Assembly: GCA_015662905.1 (NCBI GenBank) | Contig: DQTE01000034.1 | Location: 1-39,648 of the forward strand | Reading direction: 5' to 3' | DNA from: Crocinitomix sp. | Lineage (GTDB): Bacteria > Bacteroidota > Bacteroidia > Flavobacteriales_D > Crocinitomicaceae | DNA: 39,648 nt | In this document: positions 1 through 29,518 of the stretch, one piece after another | How positions within the stretch are numbered: position 1 is the stretch's first letter | Layout of the letters: every line of letters starts with the position of its first letter | The notes under the pieces: model-generated | The model's database searches: none | Seen by the model: the letters and a program-made list of their open reading frames with translations, nothing else | What the model was told of the DNA's origin: nothing | Made by a program: the position numbers and the translations under genes

Positions 1-220
1 CAAAATGTACGTTAGAACTTTACTATGTAAAATCACGAACACCAATAAAAAAATAAAAAGGACAGTGAGTAATTGGTGTAGCGCAGGTTTGAGACACGCA
101 AACATAGCATTAGTTATGATGAGTATCGAAAAACGAGCCTGCCTTTGTCTGCAGACAGGCATTCCCAATAATGGCGTGAAGTTTGGCTTTGCAGTAGAAG
201 AGATACTTGCAGATTTAAGG
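1..220. repeat. MITE-like inverted-repeat element, copy 1 (left end outside window)
   Basis: This stretch is nearly identical to 27958-28140 over its first ~105 bases and again over its last ~60 bases. Its right end at 203-220 matches the 18-bp terminal repeat of the complete copy (27873-28140) with one G-to-A change. The middle (about 108-165) differs: here it is roughly 37 bp longer and holds a 12-bp palindrome around a CTGCAG core. The left terminal repeat would lie before base 1. The end falls 55 bp upstream of the alpha-2-macroglobulin gene start, so the element borders that gene's promoter region. It contains no transposase. The reading frame at 5-232 is part of the repeat and is not called a gene. 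Confidence 0.75.
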
Positions 221-275: not shown

Positions 276-3200
276 ATGAAAACTAATTTTATAGTCTCAA
301 CATTAATAGTTTTAGTATTAAGTTTAAATATAAACGCTCAAACATATTATAAAAAAAAATGGGCAAAAGTAGATTCCTTAGAAAACAAAGGACTTTACAA
401 TATGGCATTGACAGAGGTAAACAAAATTTTTGATGATGCCATTAAAAAGAAAAGACATAATCAAGTAATTAAGTCTGTTTTTTATGAATTAAAATACAAT
501 TCTTATTTAAAAGAAGATGACTATGTATTAGGTATTTACAAATTAGAAAATCTAACTAAAGATGCGCCATCACCTTCTAAGGAAATTTTACATTCTTTAA
601 CAGCTGAAGTATATTGGTGGTATTACAATGCTAATTCGTGGAAATTTACACAACGTACACAAATAGAATCTAAGGTTAAATTAAATGATATTAGAACTTG
701 GGATTTAAAACGAATTGCTAAAAAAGTAATTTATCACTATAAAAAATCAATTGAGAACACTGGGGTTTCTCAAACAATTCCATTGAAAAAATTTAATGAA
801 ATTATTGTAAACACGTCAGACACAAAAGATTATATACCTACGTTGTATGATTTTTTGGCACATAGAGTGATAGATTTCTTTTCCTCAAACACATTTAACG
901 TGCCAGGACCTGCCACTACGTTTACATTAAATCACTCAGAATATTTTTCAACAAACACAAAATTTTTAAACTTAAAAACATCAACTAATGATTCATTAAA
1001 CACACGGTTTTATGCTGTTATGGCTTATAAATTATTAACCGATTTTCATTTACGTCACCAACATCAATCTGCTTTGTTAATGCTTGAGTTTAAGCGTCTA
1101 AAATTTGCAAAAAATAATGTCGTATTACCCAATAAAAATGATTTATATCTAAAAGCTTTAGAAAGAATGACTAAAGTTTATCCTAATAACAAATACATTT
1201 CGGAAGTTTGGTACGCCATAGCTCAAATTTATAATGAAATAGGAAATAAATATATTACACCTGATGAACAATACAGATGGGAAAAGAAAAAAGCACTTTT
1301 GATTTGTAAAAGGACTATTAAAAATTTTCCCGGTTCTTTTGGTGCAAAACAATGTAAAGGATTAATCAATCAAATACAAAAAAAAGCGTATGATTTATCA
1401 GTTGAAAATGTTTTTCAACCAAACCAAAACAATTTAGTTAAAATAAACTATAAAAATATTGACAACGCATACGTTAAGATTATTAAAATTGATAAACTTG
1501 AGGCATTTAAAAAGCTACGAAAACAACATCAAAAAATAGCTTTTATCAATAAATCTAATGCCGTGTTTAGTAAAAATATAGATTTAATAAACGAAGGTGA
1601 TTATCAAAACCATCACTTTGAATTTATTTTGCCTTCTTTAGATAAAGGTCTTTATTTAATAGCATCAACTACACAAGCACCTTTTTCAAACTCAAAACCA
1701 TTGGTTTATACTTTAGTAACAGTAACAAATTTAACATACCAAATTTTAAATAAAGAAGATGAAGCGCAAATTTTAGTTACAGATAGAATAAGTGGCGAAC
1801 CAGTAGAACAAGCTAAAGTTTCGATTAAATATAAAGAATACAACAGAAAAACAGGGAAATATATTGAAAAAATCCTTGGAATATTTACAACTGATAAAGA
1901 TGGAATTGTTAACGTTAAACACAGTTTAGATAATAGATATTATTTAAAATATTATTGTAAGATAGAAAAAGATGAAGATGTATATAATGAGGGAGCATTT
2001 TACTTAAACAAAAGTTATGGTAATTCACCAAAAACAAAGGTTACCACGTCTTTTTTTACAGATAGAAAAATTTACAGACCCGGACAAACTATATATTTTA
2101 AAGGTATTGTTAAGGAATCAACAGGAAATAAACACAGTTTAAAAAAGAATTATAAAACCACAGTGTATTTTTATGATGTAAACAGACAAGAAATAGCAAA
2201 AGTAGATGTTGAAACAAATGAATTTGGTTCTTTTTCGGGACAGTTCATAGCACCTATAGGTGTCCTAACTGGTAGTATGTCTATTATGTGTAAAACAGGA
2301 AGCACATATTTCAGAGTAGAAGAATATAAAAGACCAAAGTTTAGTACATACTTTAAACCAATATCAAAAGAATATCAAGTTAATGACAGTGTTACTGTAA
2401 CAGGTATAGCAAAAGCTTTTGCAGGCAACTTTATAGATGGCGCAGAAGTGTCATACAGAATAAGCCGAACAACTAAACAAAATAGATGGTATAGAGGTTG
2501 GTGGTGGAGACCAACCAACACCGAAAAAGAAATTGATTTTGGAACGGTTACTACCAACGAAAAGGGAGAATATAACATTACCTTTAAAGCCATCCAAGAC
2601 CAAACAAAAGACCCAAAAACACTACCAGTTTTTATTTATACCATTTACGCTGATGTAACAGACATTAACGGAGAAACACATTCAACAATCATAAAGGTGT
2701 CTGTAGGCTATCATTCATTATTATTAGCTAATAATTTACAAAATGAAATATCAAATCAACAAAAAAGCAATATATTTAGAGTTTTAACCACAAACCTTAA
2801 TAATCAACCTGTTTTTGCAAAAGGAAACCTAAAAATTCACAAACTTAAAACCCCTAAAAGATCCTATAGAGAACGTTTGTGGCGTCCAGCAGAATACAAC
2901 AATTTTACTGAATCAGAATTTAGACAAAAGCTACCTTTTGATGCCTATCAAAATGAAAATAACTATCGCACTTGGGAAAAAGAACAATTGGTTTTTGAAC
3001 AATCTTTTAATACAAGCATTACCGACAGTATTTTATTGTTAGATTTTAACAAATGGAAAACAGGATATTATGTTTATGAAGCAACAGCAAAAGATAAAAA
3101 TGGCATAGAAGTTAAGGATATAAAATACTTTTTAGTTTACAATGATAACGCTAAAAAACCATCAACTAATGAAGTGTTTAAACTTAAACCTTTAAATGTC

Positions 3201-6200
3201 AGTGTACAACCAGGTGAAAAAGCCAAATTTTTATTATCTACAGCAGAAAAATCTCTAAGTGTGTTTATGAGTATTGAACACAAAGGTAAAATTGAAAAAC
3301 AAGAATGGATAACACTTTCAAATGAACAAAAAATGATAGAAATTCCTGTGGAGGAAAAACACAGAGGTAATTTTTCAGTATCCTTTTCGGCAATGAAACA
3401 TAACCGCTCTTACGTATCTAATCAAACGATAAAGGTGCCGTATAAAAACAAACAATTAAACTTAGTATTTTCTACATTCAGAAATAAACTATTACCAGGC
3501 CAAGCTGAAGAATGGATACTTACCATAAAAAACGCAGAAGGTAACCCAGAAATGGCTGAACTTTTAGCCACTTTATATGATGCATCATTAGATGAGCTTT
3601 ATACACCTAATAATTTTTATATGGCCATTTATCAAATATACAATCGTACTTTAAGGTGGAGTTCTTTTAAAGGTATGGGGGCAAAAAACGTTAAAAACAC
3701 TAATTATTCTTGGGATAGAAAAACGGTAAGTTACCCACGTAGAACTTATCCAAAGTTTAATTATTATGGATATTCAACCTATTATTACGGTAGGGTTTTT
3801 GAAAGATATGATAATAAAGTAAATGTAGAATCACTCATTATGGAAGAATCCTCTGTTGCTGTGAAAACAAAGTCAGAAGATGTTAAAACAGCGCAAAATG
3901 GTATGGATGCCAAAACTGAATTAGATTTAAAAGATAAGGACAGCGATGAAGAAAGTAATCAACAACCCCAACCAACAAACAGTTCACCTTTAACTCAAAT
4001 AAAAGCGCGCTCTAATTTTAACGAAACGGCTTTCTTTTATCCTCAATTATTAACAGATTCCGAAGGAAACATAAAAATTAAGTTTACCATACCAGAAAGT
4101 TTAACCAAATGGAGATTTTTAGGTTTAGCCCATACACAAGATTTAAAAATAGGAACCATAACAGAAGAAGTGATTACGCAAAAAGATTTAATGGTGCAAC
4201 CAAATGTTCCACGTTTTTTAAGAGAAGGAGATAAAATTACCTTATCTTCTAAAATTGTAAATGTGTCAAAAAAAGATTTACAAGGAAAAGTATTATTACA
4301 ACTTATAGACCCTTTTACAGAGGAAGTAATAGACACAAAATTTAACCTAACAAATAATGAACAGAATTTTGATGTAAAAGCAAGTAGAAGTACCTCTGTC
4401 AGTTGGACTTTTGATGTGCCCTATCAATTAAGTACGGTAAAATATAAAATTGTAGCACAAGCAGGTAACTTTTCTGATGGGGAGGAAAATGTTTTACCTA
4501 TCTTAACAAATAGAATGTTGGTGACAGAGAGTCTTCCTCTACCAATTAGAGGAAAGGAAAATAAAACGTTTAGGTTTGTTAAACTAATTAATGAAAACAA
4601 TAACAGTACAACCTTAGTTCATCACAGATACACCCTCGAATTTACTTCAAACCCAGCTTGGTATGCAGTTCAGGCAATGCCTTATATGATGGAGTATCCG
4701 TATGAATGTTCAGAACAAGTGTTTACGCGTTATTATTCAAACACCATTGCTTCACACATAATGAACAGTAACCCAAAAATTAAACAAGTTATTGAAGATT
4801 GGGGTAAAAACTCACCAGAGGCATTTTTATCTAACTTACAAAAAAATCAAGAGCTTAAAAGTTTGTTGTTAGAAGAAACCCCTTGGGTGCTTAATGCAAA
4901 ATCAGAAGAGGAAACGAAAAAAAATCTATCCATCTTATTAGATATGAATAGAATGTCTAAAGAATTAGATAAAGCGCTTAGTATTATTATAAAAAGACAA
5001 AGTCCAAATGGCGGTTGGCCTTGGTTTTCAGGAATGAAAGAAAGCCGTTACATTACCCAACACATTATTACCGGAATGGGACATTTAGACCACTTGGGAA
5101 TTAAAGAAGTTAGAGAAAACAAACAGACGTGGCAAATGATTAAAAAAGGCGTTAAATTTTTAGATAATGAATTAGTCAAAGATTTTCAATACATTAAAAA
5201 AAGAGACAAGGATTACTTAAAACATTTTTATTTGAGTTATACCCAAATACAATATATGTATATGCGCTCTTATTTTCCTAAAATTAGAATGGATAAACAA
5301 ACACAACAAGCCTTAGCCTTTTTTAAAAATCAGGCAAAACAAAATTGGCTAAAATTCAACATTTATGCGGAAGGAATGATAGCTTTAGCTGCACACCGTT
5401 TTGAAATGAAAGAATTAGCCACTGACATTGTTAAATCTTTAAAAGACAGAGCCATTTATTCTGATGAATTTGGAATGTACTGGAAAGGATTTAATGTTGG
5501 ATATTATTGGTATCAGGCACCAATAGAAACTCACGCATTAATGATAGAAATGTTTGATGAGGTTGCCAATGATGAAAAATCAGTGGAAGAATTAAAAATA
5601 TGGTTGTTAAAGCAAAAACAAACCACCCATTGGAAAACTACAAAACAAACCACAGCCTCTGTTTATGCTTTATTATTAAAAGGAACAGACCTATTAGCCA
5701 ATGATGAGTTTGTTCAAATAACAATAGGAAATAAAAAAATAAAATACGTAAATAAAACATCAGACGACCCTTACAAAGTAAACACACAAGCGGGCACAGG
5801 GTATTTTAAAACTGCTTGGGAGGGCGATAAAGTTAAACCAGAAATGGGAAAAATTACAGTATCTAAAACTACAAAAGGCGTAGCTTGGGGAGCTGTTTAT
5901 TGGCAATATTTTGAAGACTTAGATAAAATAACCTATCACGAAACACCTTTAAAACTCAACAAAGAATTATACCTATTAAAACATACACCAAAAGGAGAAA
6001 CGCTCACACAAATAACACATGATAACACCTTAAAAGTAGGTGATAAAATTAGAGTACGTATTGAATTACGCACAGATAGAAATTTGGAATATGTACATAT
6101 GAAAGATATGCGTGCCTCAGCTTTTGAACCTATAAATGTACTATCATCTTATAAATGGAGAGAAGGCTTAGGTTACTATGAGGCCACAAAAGACGCTTCT

Positions 6201-6365
6201 ACTAACTTCTTTTTTGATTACATTCCAAAAGGAACTTATGTATTTGAATATGATTTAAGAGTACAACACAAAGGTTATTTTTCTAACGGAATAACAACTA
6301 TTCAATGTATGTACGCCCCTGAATTTACAAGTCATAGTGAGGGAATTAGAGTAAAAGTAGAATAA
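276..6365 (+). CDS. secreted alpha-2-macroglobulin family protein with thioester motif
   Basis: A 2029-residue protein of the bacterial alpha-2-macroglobulin family, thought to trap attacking proteases at the cell surface or in the periplasm. Residues 1-21 form a signal peptide ending NAQ, with no lipobox cysteine. Residues ~25-380 are a helical, TPR-like region seen in Bacteroidota members. The MG2 segment starts near residue 592 (DRKIYRPGQTIYFKG). A Tyr/Arg- and then Asp/Glu/Gln-rich stretch at ~1150-1240 sits where a protease-cleavable bait region is expected. The A2M domain starts near 1246 (NETAFFYPQ). The thioester motif CSEQ is present with Cys1478, followed by the helical thioester domain (GGWPWFSGMKES near 1580). 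The gene ends only 4 bases from the convergent gene at 6370. E. coli-type family members often sit beside pbpC; no such partner is seen here. Family assignment is firm; the anti-protease role is inferred from the family. Confidence 0.93.
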   Translation: MKTNFIVSTLIVLVLSLNINAQTYYKKKWAKVDSLENKGLYNMALTEVNKIFDDAIKKKRHNQVIKSVFYELKYNSYLKEDDYVLGIYKLENLTKDAPSPSKEILHSLTAEVYWWYYNANSWKFTQRTQIESKVKLNDIRTWDLKRIAKKVIYHYKKSIENTGVSQTIPLKKFNEIIVNTSDTKDYIPTLYDFLAHRVIDFFSSNTFNVPGPATTFTLNHSEYFSTNTKFLNLKTSTNDSLNTRFYAVMAYKLLTDFHLRHQHQSALLMLEFKRLKFAKNNVVLPNKNDLYLKALERMTKVYPNNKYISEVWYAIAQIYNEIGNKYITPDEQYRWEKKKALLICKRTIKNFPGSFGAKQCKGLINQIQKKAYDLSVENVFQPNQNNLVKINYKNIDNAYVKIIKIDKLEAFKKLRKQHQKIAFINKSNAVFSKNIDLINEGDYQNHHFEFILPSLDKGLYLIASTTQAPFSNSKPLVYTLVTVTNLTYQILNKEDEAQILVTDRISGEPVEQAKVSIKYKEYNRKTGKYIEKILGIFTTDKDGIVNVKHSLDNRYYLKYYCKIEKDEDVYNEGAFYLNKSYGNSPKTKVTTSFFTDRKIYRPGQTIYFKGIVKESTGNKHSLKKNYKTTVYFYDVNRQEIAKVDVETNEFGSFSGQFIAPIGVLTGSMSIMCKTGSTYFRVEEYKRPKFSTYFKPISKEYQVNDSVTVTGIAKAFAGNFIDGAEVSYRISRTTKQNRWYRGWWWRPTNTEKEIDFGTVTTNEKGEYNITFKAIQDQTKDPKTLPVFIYTIYADVTDINGETHSTIIKVSVGYHSLLLANNLQNEISNQQKSNIFRVLTTNLNNQPVFAKGNLKIHKLKTPKRSYRERLWRPAEYNNFTESEFRQKLPFDAYQNENNYRTWEKEQLVFEQSFNTSITDSILLLDFNKWKTGYYVYEATAKDKNGIEVKDIKYFLVYNDNAKKPSTNEVFKLKPLNVSVQPGEKAKFLLSTAEKSLSVFMSIEHKGKIEKQEWITLSNEQKMIEIPVEEKHRGNFSVSFSAMKHNRSYVSNQTIKVPYKNKQLNLVFSTFRNKLLPGQAEEWILTIKNAEGNPEMAELLATLYDASLDELYTPNNFYMAIYQIYNRTLRWSSFKGMGAKNVKNTNYSWDRKTVSYPRRTYPKFNYYGYSTYYYGRVFERYDNKVNVESLIMEESSVAVKTKSEDVKTAQNGMDAKTELDLKDKDSDEESNQQPQPTNSSPLTQIKARSNFNETAFFYPQLLTDSEGNIKIKFTIPESLTKWRFLGLAHTQDLKIGTITEEVITQKDLMVQPNVPRFLREGDKITLSSKIVNVSKKDLQGKVLLQLIDPFTEEVIDTKFNLTNNEQNFDVKASRSTSVSWTFDVPYQLSTVKYKIVAQAGNFSDGEENVLPILTNRMLVTESLPLPIRGKENKTFRFVKLINENNNSTTLVHHRYTLEFTSNPAWYAVQAMPYMMEYPYECSEQVFTRYYSNTIASHIMNSNPKIKQVIEDWGKNSPEAFLSNLQKNQELKSLLLEETPWVLNAKSEEETKKNLSILLDMNRMSKELDKALSIIIKRQSPNGGWPWFSGMKESRYITQHIITGMGHLDHLGIKEVRENKQTWQMIKKGVKFLDNELVKDFQYIKKRDKDYLKHFYLSYTQIQYMYMRSYFPKIRMDKQTQQALAFFKNQAKQNWLKFNIYAEGMIALAAHRFEMKELATDIVKSLKDRAIYSDEFGMYWKGFNVGYYWYQAPIETHALMIEMFDEVANDEKSVEELKIWLLKQKQTTHWKTTKQTTASVYALLLKGTDLLANDEFVQITIGNKKIKYVNKTSDDPYKVNTQAGTGYFKTAWEGDKVKPEMGKITVSKTTKGVAWGAVYWQYFEDLDKITYHETPLKLNKELYLLKHTPKGETLTQITHDNTLKVGDKIRVRIELRTDRNLEYVHMKDMRASAFEPINVLSSYKWREGLGYYEATKDASTNFFFDYIPKGTYVFEYDLRVQHKGYFSNGITTIQCMYAPEFTSHSEGIRVKVE

Positions 6366-26854: not shown

Positions 26855-27010
26855 GGATAGTTGAATTTTTAAATGAACTAACGAATTTAAGCAAGTATTC
26901 TGTGTTGTACATCTATAACTCTCAATCTTTTATTAACACTTTTTTAAAAGTTATTAATAAGACATAAAAATAAAATACATATTTTTACTATCTTGTCAAT
27001 TATTATAATA

Positions 27011-27808
27011 ATGATAAAGACATTAATGATGAGTTTTTATAGTAGAAATCTTAGATTATTTTTAGTTTTGATGTTATTATCCAAACCACAATTAATGCTT
27101 GCTCAAAATAAACTCATTAAACTAGGTAAAACTCAAATTGAGTTAAAACAGGTTTTAATAAACAACAAGGATATTTTGTTTTTAAACATTCATCAGGATG
27201 AACAAACCAGTATAGATGCTATTCAAAGTTTTGCAAAAGTTATTCCACTTAATTTTGCTTATTTACACCATAAACAAACACGTAGGGTTGCATATCAAAT
27301 TGGCAAACACAATTTTACTGTTGACCCTAACCGAATTTTTACCAAACAAGGTAGAACTAACACTATAGAAACCAACTATAAGGTAACTATAAGGTCTAAA
27401 TTAATGGCTAAAAAATTAGCAAATGAAATAGTAAATTTAATTAAAAATTTCAAAGTTATTGTAACGCTACATAATAATACAGATGTAAATTATTCGATAA
27501 AAAGTTATTTAAAAGACGGAGAAGAAGCTCAAAATACGGCAGAGGTCTATGTAAATCCAAACATGGATGCAGATGATTTTATTTATACCACAGAAAAAAA
27601 GTTTTTTGATTACTTAAAACGTGCCAACTACAATGTAATTCTACAGGATAATAATAATTTTGTTAATGATGGCTCTTTATCAATATATTGCGGCATTAAT
27701 CAAATTCCCTATATCAATATAGAGGCTCAACTTGGGCATTATAACGAACAATTGGAACTTATAAAAATTGTTTATGAAATGTTGTCGCGCACCAGTTATG
27801 TTTTTTAA
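27011..27808 (+). CDS. putative secreted M14/AstE-like zinc hydrolase
   Basis: Not a family I can name with certainty, but the residue pattern resembles the zinc carboxypeptidase / succinylglutamate desuccinylase fold. Counting from this ATG: HQDE at His61-Glu64 (the HxxE zinc pair), DPNRIF with Arg108 (like the NR or DLNR substrate motif), TLHNN with His154 (third zinc ligand), and NIEAQLGH with Glu238 (catalytic Glu). A hydrophobic stretch ending LMLAQ indicates export. A TTG at 26993 opens the same frame six codons earlier, and ATGs also lie at 27026 and 27029; 27011 is chosen as the first ATG. Divergent from mutS and convergent with saccharopine dehydrogenase, with the MITE-like element between. 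Peptidase versus amidase or deacylase cannot be settled. Confidence 0.65.
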   Translation: MIKTLMMSFYSRNLRLFLVLMLLSKPQLMLAQNKLIKLGKTQIELKQVLINNKDILFLNIHQDEQTSIDAIQSFAKVIPLNFAYLHHKQTRRVAYQIGKHNFTVDPNRIFTKQGRTNTIETNYKVTIRSKLMAKKLANEIVNLIKNFKVIVTLHNNTDVNYSIKSYLKDGEEAQNTAEVYVNPNMDADDFIYTTEKKFFDYLKRANYNVILQDNNNFVNDGSLSIYCGINQIPYINIEAQLGHYNEQLELIKIVYEMLSRTSYVF

Positions 27809-27872
27809 GTTAACGCCTTTTAAAACAAAAACACCCAACTAGCTATCAAAGACATTGAGTTTTTTTAGTAAA

Positions 27873-28140
27873 CCTTAAATCCGCAAGTATGTTCGTAGCG
27901 AAATGCAAAGCATTCATAAACACCTTAAAAAGCAAATACAAATTTGTGCATAAAAGTCAAAATGTACGTTAAAACTTTACTATGTAAAATCACGAACACC
28001 AATAAAAAAATAAAAAAGATAGTGAGTAATTGGTGTGGCGCAGGTTTGAGACACGCAAACACCTGTATAAACGCAGACAGACATTCCCAATAATGGCGTG
28101 CAGCTTGGCTTTGCAGTAGAAGATACTTGCGGATTTAAGG
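27873..28140. mobile_element. MITE-like element, complete copy 2 (268 bp)
   Basis: The element is bounded by perfect 18-bp inverted repeats (27873-27890, ccttaaatccgcaagtat, and its complement at 28123-28140). GTAAA occurs directly outside both ends (27868-27872 and 28141-28145), as expected for a 5-bp target duplication. The interior has no transposase and contains several small hairpins (AATGC/GCATT, ACACCAAT/ATTGGTGT, GTTTG/CAAAC). From 27958 on it matches bases 1-220. It sits between two convergent genes, and its right end is only 7 bases from the stop codon of the gene at 28148. Confidence 0.75.
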
Positions 28141-28147
28141 GTAAACC

Positions 28148-29518
28148 CTAGATAGCACAAGTTTCGTTGTACAATACTGGAGGATTAATTTCTTTGTCCA
28201 CAAACTTAATGTTGTATTCTTGTAATTCTTTTAATATTGGTAAATATATTTCTTTTTGTATTGGAATGTGAACACCTTTAAGTGTAATTGTATTGTTTAA
28301 AATCATTTTAGCACAAATTGCTACAGGTAACCCTACTGTATTACTCATTGCTGTATAAGTTTGGTTTTCACCAATTGCTACCAAGGACGAATTTATTTCT
28401 TTATATTCTCCGTTCAGGGTATAGACAAATTTATGCCACATAACAATCATATCTTTATCGTTTGGCTCAAGTACCCATTTTTCTTCTACAATTTTTTGTA
28501 AAAATTGCGCAGGTGTAATATCCTCTTTCAAATCATACCCTTCATTTTCAAAAATGCCAAGCCAAACTAATTTGTCCCAAATAGGGTCATCTTGGTCAAT
28601 TCTTAATTGATATCTAAGTTTTAACTCAACAGAATCATAAGGGTGAAAAGGTAAAAAGGAATTGATAAAATCTCTTTTAGTCATGTTTTTACTGCCTTCT
28701 AAAATGTAAGAATCATCAGTAGCACCAAGTTGAACAAAAACATTCCATGCTTTAGAAAAACCCTTTCGTCTAAAAGTCCCTCTATAAATGGTTGGGATAT
28801 CATCTAAACCATAAATTTCTCTATATTTTAGGGAGTTTCTATTAGCATAGCCTTCAAATTCTCCGTAACCATCAATTTTTATGATTTCTGTGCGTCTAAA
28901 TAATTTATGATAGGGAATATATTTATATTTTCCTTCTTGAATAAATTTAGCAGCACCACCTTGTCCTGCAAGAACCACATTTCGTGGATTCCATGTTAAC
29001 TTATAATTCCATGGGTTGTTGTCCGATTCTGGGGCAACTAATCCTCCAGTAAAAGACTCAAAAATATGCATTTTCCCTCCTTTTTCTTCAATCTCGTCAA
29101 GAATTTTTTTTGCACTCATGTGATCTATACCTGGATCTACTCCTACTTCGTTCATAATTATAATGTCAGCCCGTTTAGCGTCATCATCCAAGCTTTCCAT
29201 TTCTTTTGACACATAAGAGGGTGTAATTATATTTGTTTTAAATTTAATACAATCTTTTGCTATTTCTATATGAAACCTTGCTGGCAACATAGAAACAACA
29301 AGGTCTGCCCACTCAATTAAAGGTTGTCTTTCTGCAGGGTTAAGTGCATTTAGTGTAAAACCTTCAGCATGTTTTGAGTTGCCAATTTTCGATATTGCTA
29401 AATCACCATCTCTATCACCTACCTTTATATACCAGTTTTCTTTTTCTGCGTTTTGTACAAAGTATCTAATCATTGAGGACGCAGATAATCCAGCGCCTAT
29501 TACAAGTATGTTTTTCAT
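28148..29518 (-). CDS. saccharopine dehydrogenase-like reductase
   Basis: A 456-residue NAD(P)-dependent enzyme of the saccharopine dehydrogenase family. The Rossmann motif VIGAGLSASS starts at residue 5. The catalytic-domain landmarks VGVDPGIDHMSA, GGLVAPESDNNPWNYKLTW and AGQGGAAKF resemble the glutamate-forming yeast LYS9 type. Such enzymes interconvert saccharopine and aminoadipate semialdehyde in lysine metabolism; in Bacteroidota a lysine-degradation role or a related carboxyalkyl-amine reaction is possible. No other lysine gene is adjacent. Divergent from the small genes at 29658. Confidence 0.87.
   Translation of the reverse strand: MKNILVIGAGLSASSMIRYFVQNAEKENWYIKVGDRDGDLAISKIGNSKHAEGFTLNALNPAERQPLIEWADLVVSMLPARFHIEIAKDCIKFKTNIITPSYVSKEMESLDDDAKRADIIIMNEVGVDPGIDHMSAKKILDEIEEKGGKMHIFESFTGGLVAPESDNNPWNYKLTWNPRNVVLAGQGGAAKFIQEGKYKYIPYHKLFRRTEIIKIDGYGEFEGYANRNSLKYREIYGLDDIPTIYRGTFRRKGFSKAWNVFVQLGATDDSYILEGSKNMTKRDFINSFLPFHPYDSVELKLRYQLRIDQDDPIWDKLVWLGIFENEGYDLKEDITPAQFLQKIVEEKWVLEPNDKDMIVMWHKFVYTLNGEYKEINSSLVAIGENQTYTAMSNTVGLPVAICAKMILNNTITLKGVHIPIQKEIYLPILKELQEYNIKFVDKEINPPVLYNETCAI

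Follow-up and report, generated by a model that had tools for sequence, protein, structure and literature searches.

The Locus and Its Two Repeat Copies

The window analyzed here is a stretch of 39,648 nucleotides of Crocinitomix sp. DNA. Between two convergent genes, located at 26993-27808 (+) and 28148-29518 (-, with saccharopine dehydrogenase domains), it carries a 268-bp element with perfect 18-bp ends and the pentanucleotide GTAAA on each outer side (Table 1). Both the position between convergent genes and the exact reverse complementarity of the ends, bordered twice by GTAAA, agree with a preliminary description made from the sequence. No ORF of 90 aa or more is present within 27873-28140, nor is a transposase gene.

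A second copy lies at the beginning of the window, just upstream of a gene (276-6365) that had been described as an alpha-2-macroglobulin gene and that has A2M, MG2 and bMG10 domains. The preliminary description had this copy occupying 1-220, with one altered base in its right end. The right end was recovered, with one mismatch. The assembled contig begins at position 1; the copy is truncated by this, and both its left end and its target duplication are invisible. The additional middle sequence attributed to this copy, when compared to that at 27873, is real: it includes the hairpin tip, in a diverged version, whereas the copy at 27873 no longer has it.

Table 1. Coordinates of the repeat features in the window.
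Feature	Position	Strand	Evidence
Left 5-bp target duplication GTAAA	27868-27872	.	Sequence; among 44 copies, no repeat length but 5 bp is strongly enriched
Complete MITE copy, 268 bp	27873-28140	+	+ strand is the L-first orientation, the better-folding one in most copies
Left 18-bp terminal inverted repeat CCTTAAATCCGCAAGTAT, IS1380-type end	27873-27890	+	78 genome matches at ≤2 mismatches, control 0; exact 18-mer beside IS1380 transposase genes in L202/L207, L198
Right 18-bp terminal inverted repeat	28123-28140	-	Exact reverse complement of left repeat
Right arm, 59 bp, common to MITEs of Bacteroidales and other Bacteroidota	28082-28140	-	Most copies in Bacteroidales M17, Dive100_bin10.60 and Maribacter SZUA-7 match it at about 87-95% identity
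Right 5-bp target duplication GTAAA	28141-28145	.	Sequence
Second MITE copy, left side cut off by contig start	1-220	+	
Right terminal repeat of second copy, one mismatch	203-220	-	18-bp end search
Hairpin-tip region retained in second copy	77-142	+	Covariance model R1 positions 56-121, E 5.9e-5; missing from 27873 copy

Copy Number, Genomic Distribution and Target-Site Duplications

The genome assembly comprises 2.97 Mb in 335 contigs. At least 58 pieces of the element were detected in it by BLAST (40 of 171 candidates scored), and a search for the 18-bp end allowing up to two mismatches gave 78 matches spread over 57 contigs, the reversed-pattern control giving 0. The repeat is hence a high-copy one, as had been suspected from the two copies in the window. 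As 41 of the 670 contig termini are located inside a copy, it is also one cause of the fragmentation of the assembly.

For further analysis, complete copies were paired from their ends: 13 in this genome, which are 97-324 bp long, and 31 from the loci of an exact 18-mer scan of a contig collection. A copy was excluded if its flank was shorter than 8 bases, if its ends stood more than 450 bp apart or if either end had more than four mismatches. All but one of the resulting 44 copies are located outside ORFs of 100 aa or more, and the sole copy inside is found in a 128-aa ORF that spans the element and is mostly made of it. The genes next to the 43 copies outside ORFs are convergent in 5 cases, divergent in 9, in tandem in 16 and of undetermined orientation in 13; with orientations so mixed, gene ends are not preferred.

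Of the 44 complete copies, 24 lie between exact 5-bp direct repeats; in 2000 permutations of the right flanks, such copies numbered 1.59 on average and 7 at most. Further duplications, differing in sequence from GTAAA, are hence present at further copies, the two things whose absence would have spoken against the preliminary description. Repeats of 3, 4, 6, 7 or 8 bp are not enriched among the 44 copies; those of 2 bp are mildly so (13/44, permutation mean 7.2). Copies located elsewhere have the exact 5-bp duplication in 21 of 31 cases, and those of this genome in 3 of 13 (GTAAA, TAACA and TTTTA; p = 0.0135 for this genome alone). One copy, on contig C212, has perfect ends yet lacks the 5-bp duplication. 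The absence of an exact duplication from most copies of this genome would fit with their age, with recombination or with the two together. No clean empty site was found: the orthologous locus lacks the element in 14 of 14 relatives, but the adjacent gene differs too; synteny is broken, and the genomes searched included none of the same genus.

IS1380 Elements With the Same Ends

A search for transposase genes bearing the same ends, also proposed as a check, found them, and they belong to the IS1380 family. The family that the preliminary description could not name is IS1380. When 299 genomes of the order were searched for IS1380, six matched, this genome included. Among 19 assemblies holding the 18-mer, 10 matched the model NF033539 (transpos_IS1380), five of them above its cut-off. 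One of the six matches in the order (L149) is a complete IS1380 of 1678 bp, with ends CCTTAAATCCGCAAGTTA...AGTTTTGCGGATTTAAGG and the duplication GTTAA; another (L151), also complete, is 1596 bp long and has related ends and the duplication TTGTA. A single related end is found near the IS1380 of L150, and none close to those of L152, L153 and L155. In a Flavobacteriales assembly (L118), an IS1380 fragment lies next to an exact 18-mer end; its gene, a 286-aa fragment, scores 138 bits against NF033539, under the 180-bit cut-off.

Fifteen of 23 IS1380 loci were inspected for their ends. Ends beginning CCTTAAATCCGCA(A/G), exact or with one mismatch, are located beside the transposase in L192, L193, L196, L197, L198, L201, L202, L207, L210, L212 and L213, and were not found at L191, L194, L195 and L208. 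Locus L195 is an intact IS1380 in the Bacteroidales M17 assembly; L192 has the ends without a clean 5-bp repeat, and L193 and L149 appear to be one and the same. The exact 18-mer of the window stands beside an IS1380 transposase in a Prevotellaceae assembly (L198) and in a Flavobacteriales assembly (L202 and L207).

The many copies, the 5-bp repeats at 24 of 44 of them and the transposase genes with the same ends bear out the reading as a non-autonomous, high-copy, MITE-like transposon. We consider it very probable that the element is a MITE of IS1380 type, its ends being bound and moved by the transposase with a 5-bp staggered cut and its middle being altered by deletion and recombination. 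Mobilization by an IS1380 transposase, which we infer from sequence comparison, would start with binding of the CCTTAAATCCGCAA ends; the element would then be joined to AT-rich, mostly intergenic targets, where the staggered cut would leave the 5-bp duplication (GTAAA in the window). Insertion sequences of this family, such as IS1247 and ISEcp1, likewise end in short terminal inverted repeats and duplicate 5 bp of their target (PMC3281130), IS1247 being given there as 1672 bp long with IR 16/13 and DR 5 bp; complete IS1380 elements of related genomes have the same CCTTAAATCCGCAA ends. They differ from the MITE in being about 1.6-1.7 kb long and in having a transposase, whereas the MITE copies, of 97-324 bp here, are gene-less. 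An assembly-breaking repeat has in this way been given a family name and tied to IS1380.

Distribution Among Bacteroidota

In a sample of the phylum comprising 395 genomes, the 18-mer was found at up to one mismatch only in the genome of origin (0/394 others), and no convincing match to the body of the element was obtained. The element is therefore patchy. Weak body matches in nine other genomes were judged by eye to be unrelated, having mostly an AT-rich stretch in common; a 24-bp match in G312 corresponds to another part of the element. The AT-rich stretch, at 27988-28034 of the window, is of the type TCACGAACACC(A)AAAAA...GTGAGTAA; it accounts for weak BLAST matches to the element middle in several Bacteroidota genomes and recurs in L083, L084, L181-L185, L187 and L188.

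In the larger contig collection the exact 18-mer occurs in 63 stretches, which correspond to 24 assemblies as counted by record prefix; when 18 bases are looked for on both strands of 257 Gb, chance alone is estimated to give about 7 matches, and isolated single matches such as those in L146 and L121 may be of this kind. The MITEs share the left arm over a shorter stretch than the right arm. The near-identity of the arms across orders suggests, as far as sequence comparison goes, that IS1380 or its MITEs have spread horizontally. The plasmid and phage collections contained no match to the window element or to the G467 element described below, nor the plasmid collection any to the M17 copy. Among viral contigs, the exact 18-mer is present on one, where no second end was found.

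Elements with the same IS1380-type ends and unrelated middles were also observed (L098:5043-5203, L133:3754-3914, L128:2095-2235 and L085/L093/L120/L142). They belong to the EG16N_Bin3, Draconibacterium and TAG_MAG_00011 assemblies, and their occurrence indicates that several MITE bodies use these ends.

The Hairpin and Its Possible Selection as RNA

The 175-bp form of the MITE is a single long hairpin common to Flavobacteriales and Bacteroidales. Folding extends over the full length of the element, with z-scores of -5.3 and -4.3 for the two strands of the window copy; on the R-first strand, the M17 copy gives z -9.8 and the Maribacter copy z -6.2. Covariation was studied in two alignments, A4 (15 sequences) and A3 (18 sequences), both of them hand-picked subsets of the compact form that leave out this genome's larger copies. 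In A4, read L-first, 18 of 65 pairs are changed on both sides (shuffles: mean 6.1, 0 of 500; slid pairings: 3-7), and in A3, read R-first, 12 of 55 (shuffles: mean 3.4, 0 of 500; slid pairings: 2-6), numbers to be read with the caveat that related sequences can beat shuffles without any structure and that most rows come from one MAG.

The two strands are not equivalent. For 39 of the 44 copies, the other five not being orientable by BLAST, folding of both strands was compared, and the L-first strand folds better in 36, by a mean of 13 kcal/mol. Under a symmetric pairing rule, G.U exceeds A.C by 146 to 46 in the 26 foreign copies, and by 38 to 9 when one copy of each of six foreign types is taken. 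Pairing the opposite, R-first strand gave 17 A.C and 8 G.T column entries (cells 21 and 18), which is equivalent to a G.U excess on the L-first strand. The pattern resembles that of an RNA, which falls short of proving a transcript.

The alternative of a folded-RNA-encoding repeat, already mentioned in the preliminary description, gains support from the covariation and the strand asymmetry, which suggest selection on an RNA. We weigh tentatively, as a possibility with the odds against it, that the MITE is chiefly a mobile structured RNA: the hairpin would be transcribed from the L-first (window +) strand, and selection would act on it, perhaps in the role of a small RNA or of an element that governs mRNA processing or stability, the IS1380 ends serving only as its vehicle. 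This would add to the MITE reading rather than replace it. Several observations speak against it. The 13 copies of this genome show no G.U excess (61 to 79), the strands of the window copy differ by only 1.6 kcal/mol, the foreign copies come mostly from one MAG and so lack independence, and DNA-level events between the arms could also keep the stem pairs. No Rfam match was obtained on the element.

A further point in favor of the RNA comes from the tip of the hairpin. Covariance model R1 has 17 matches in this genome and, among the 395 phylum genomes, matches in only one other, G467, which belongs to another genus. The G467 genome contains five copies (L230, L232, L234, L235 and L236, near 1501-1660) of a palindromic MITE about 159 bp long. 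Its ends, TACSAATTAC, are unlike the IS1380-type ends, and its flanks repeat TAA or TTA in all five; it has no Rfam match either. When the tip of the L230 copy was compared to the M17_089 and FlavM2 copies, scores of 36 and 37 were obtained, against shuffle maxima of 26 and 29; scores against the Maribacter copy and two copies of the Crocinitomix genome did not rise above shuffles. The tip pattern TAGCNNTAGYTAYGGTGAGTA is present in 13 of 236 loci, some of them overlapping, from this Crocinitomix genome, M17, FlavM2 and G467, and was not found among viral contigs. It is conceivable, and we put it forward as a still more speculative proposal, that a conserved RNA hairpin is carried as cargo by MITEs across Bacteroidota and switches vehicle: the tip would be shared by IS1380-ended elements of Flavobacteriales and Bacteroidales and by an element of another genus with unrelated ends and a 3-bp TAA/TTA repeat, and the stem would be kept by compensatory changes and by changes that form G.U on one strand. 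Were this so, the repeat would be a mobile, selected RNA and more than a transposon relic; elements with a hairpin selected as RNA would be mobile regulators seeded across genomes.

IS1380 Remnants in the Crocinitomix Genome

The L149 transposase has eight matches in this genome, all of them partial, on contigs C109, C83, C295 (two), C119, C5 (two) and C167. Contig C109 starts with an IS1380 end (CCTTAAATCCGCAAAACTTT) and encodes 78 N-terminal residues at 79% identity, the fragment departing from the frame of the relative near the contig end. A fragment on C295 matches PF13701/NF033539 (IS1380) and has no such end nearby. On C119, an IS1380 remnant with both ends encloses a copy of the MITE, the two flanks of the nested site not forming a duplicated pair, and on C83 the left end of the MITE is joined to a 3' part of IS1380. 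The nested and the chimeric arrangement show that the MITE and IS1380 belong to a common pool within which parts are exchanged.

These remnants raise the question of whether the MITE is a simple internal-deletion derivative of the IS1380 of this genome, amplified from one deleted copy. Deleted derivatives do exist here: a copy on C295 passes directly from transposase residues 27-52 to residues 365-425. However, past about 14-16 bp the MITE arms bear no resemblance to the ends of this genome's IS1380. Given this subterminal difference, internal deletion alone does not turn this IS1380 into the MITE, and we hold an origin of this kind to be unlikely. A palindrome arisen by chance, or a non-mobile repeat of REP/BIME type, which the intergenic position and the palindromic sequence might bring to mind, is refuted by the 5-bp duplication statistics (24/44), fits neither the control of 0, nor the ends common to transposase-bearing elements, nor a length far above that of REP units, and has practically no probability left.

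For the IS1380-type MITE, the varying middle would result from internal deletions and from recombination, whether between copies or with remnants of IS1380. An intact IS1380 gene with these ends was not found in the MAG; movement in this genome has presumably stopped, or depends on a transposase copy that escaped assembly.

Relation to Known Elements

No IS1380-derived MITE in Bacteroidetes was found in the open-licence literature searched, and none is mentioned in the sections consulted of PMC3281130, PMC9330008 and PMC3542288. In a 2024 review on MITEs (PMC10969869), IS1380 and words beginning with Bacteroid or Flavobact are absent. The terminal sequences of the element appear in the open-licence literature only in an unrelated human-gene paper. 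Within this literature the repeat is a MITE family not described before, of a type already known, and its hairpin is suggestive of an RNA.

Beside the IS1380 family, the nearest counterparts are other mobile elements of bacteria. The MITE of Cardinium is also gene-less, present in high copy and found in a Bacteroidota genome, but it derives from IS982 and is reported from one strain only (PMC9769881), whereas the present one has relatives in several orders. Those of Porphyromonas gingivalis, including BrickBuilt, are likewise Bacteroidota MITEs with IS-type ends; they differ in having ends of IS5 type, internal tandem repeats and variable duplications (PMC4596501). ERIC and Correia/NEMIS elements are similarly mobile, intergenic and stem-loop-forming, with reported action on flanking mRNAs (PMC3116915, PMC10969869, PMC2229807). 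They occur in other bacteria, the 5-bp duplications of IS1380 type belong to the present MITE, and the likeness is one of description.

Annotated RNAs were observed at some of the loci collected. The Flavo-1 RNA (RF01705) matches L113:4654-4742, L113:4860-4958, L184:1166-1243, L187:1285-1351 and L188:1691-1757, all with scores above the gathering threshold except L113:4860-4958, which is below it; the two matches of L113 are within 400 bp of a MITE copy and not on it. Locus L181 (genome G617) contains a dense tRNA array, with 15 cmscan tRNA matches in 3 kb, and partial tmRNA-like and YrlA-like matches at its end.
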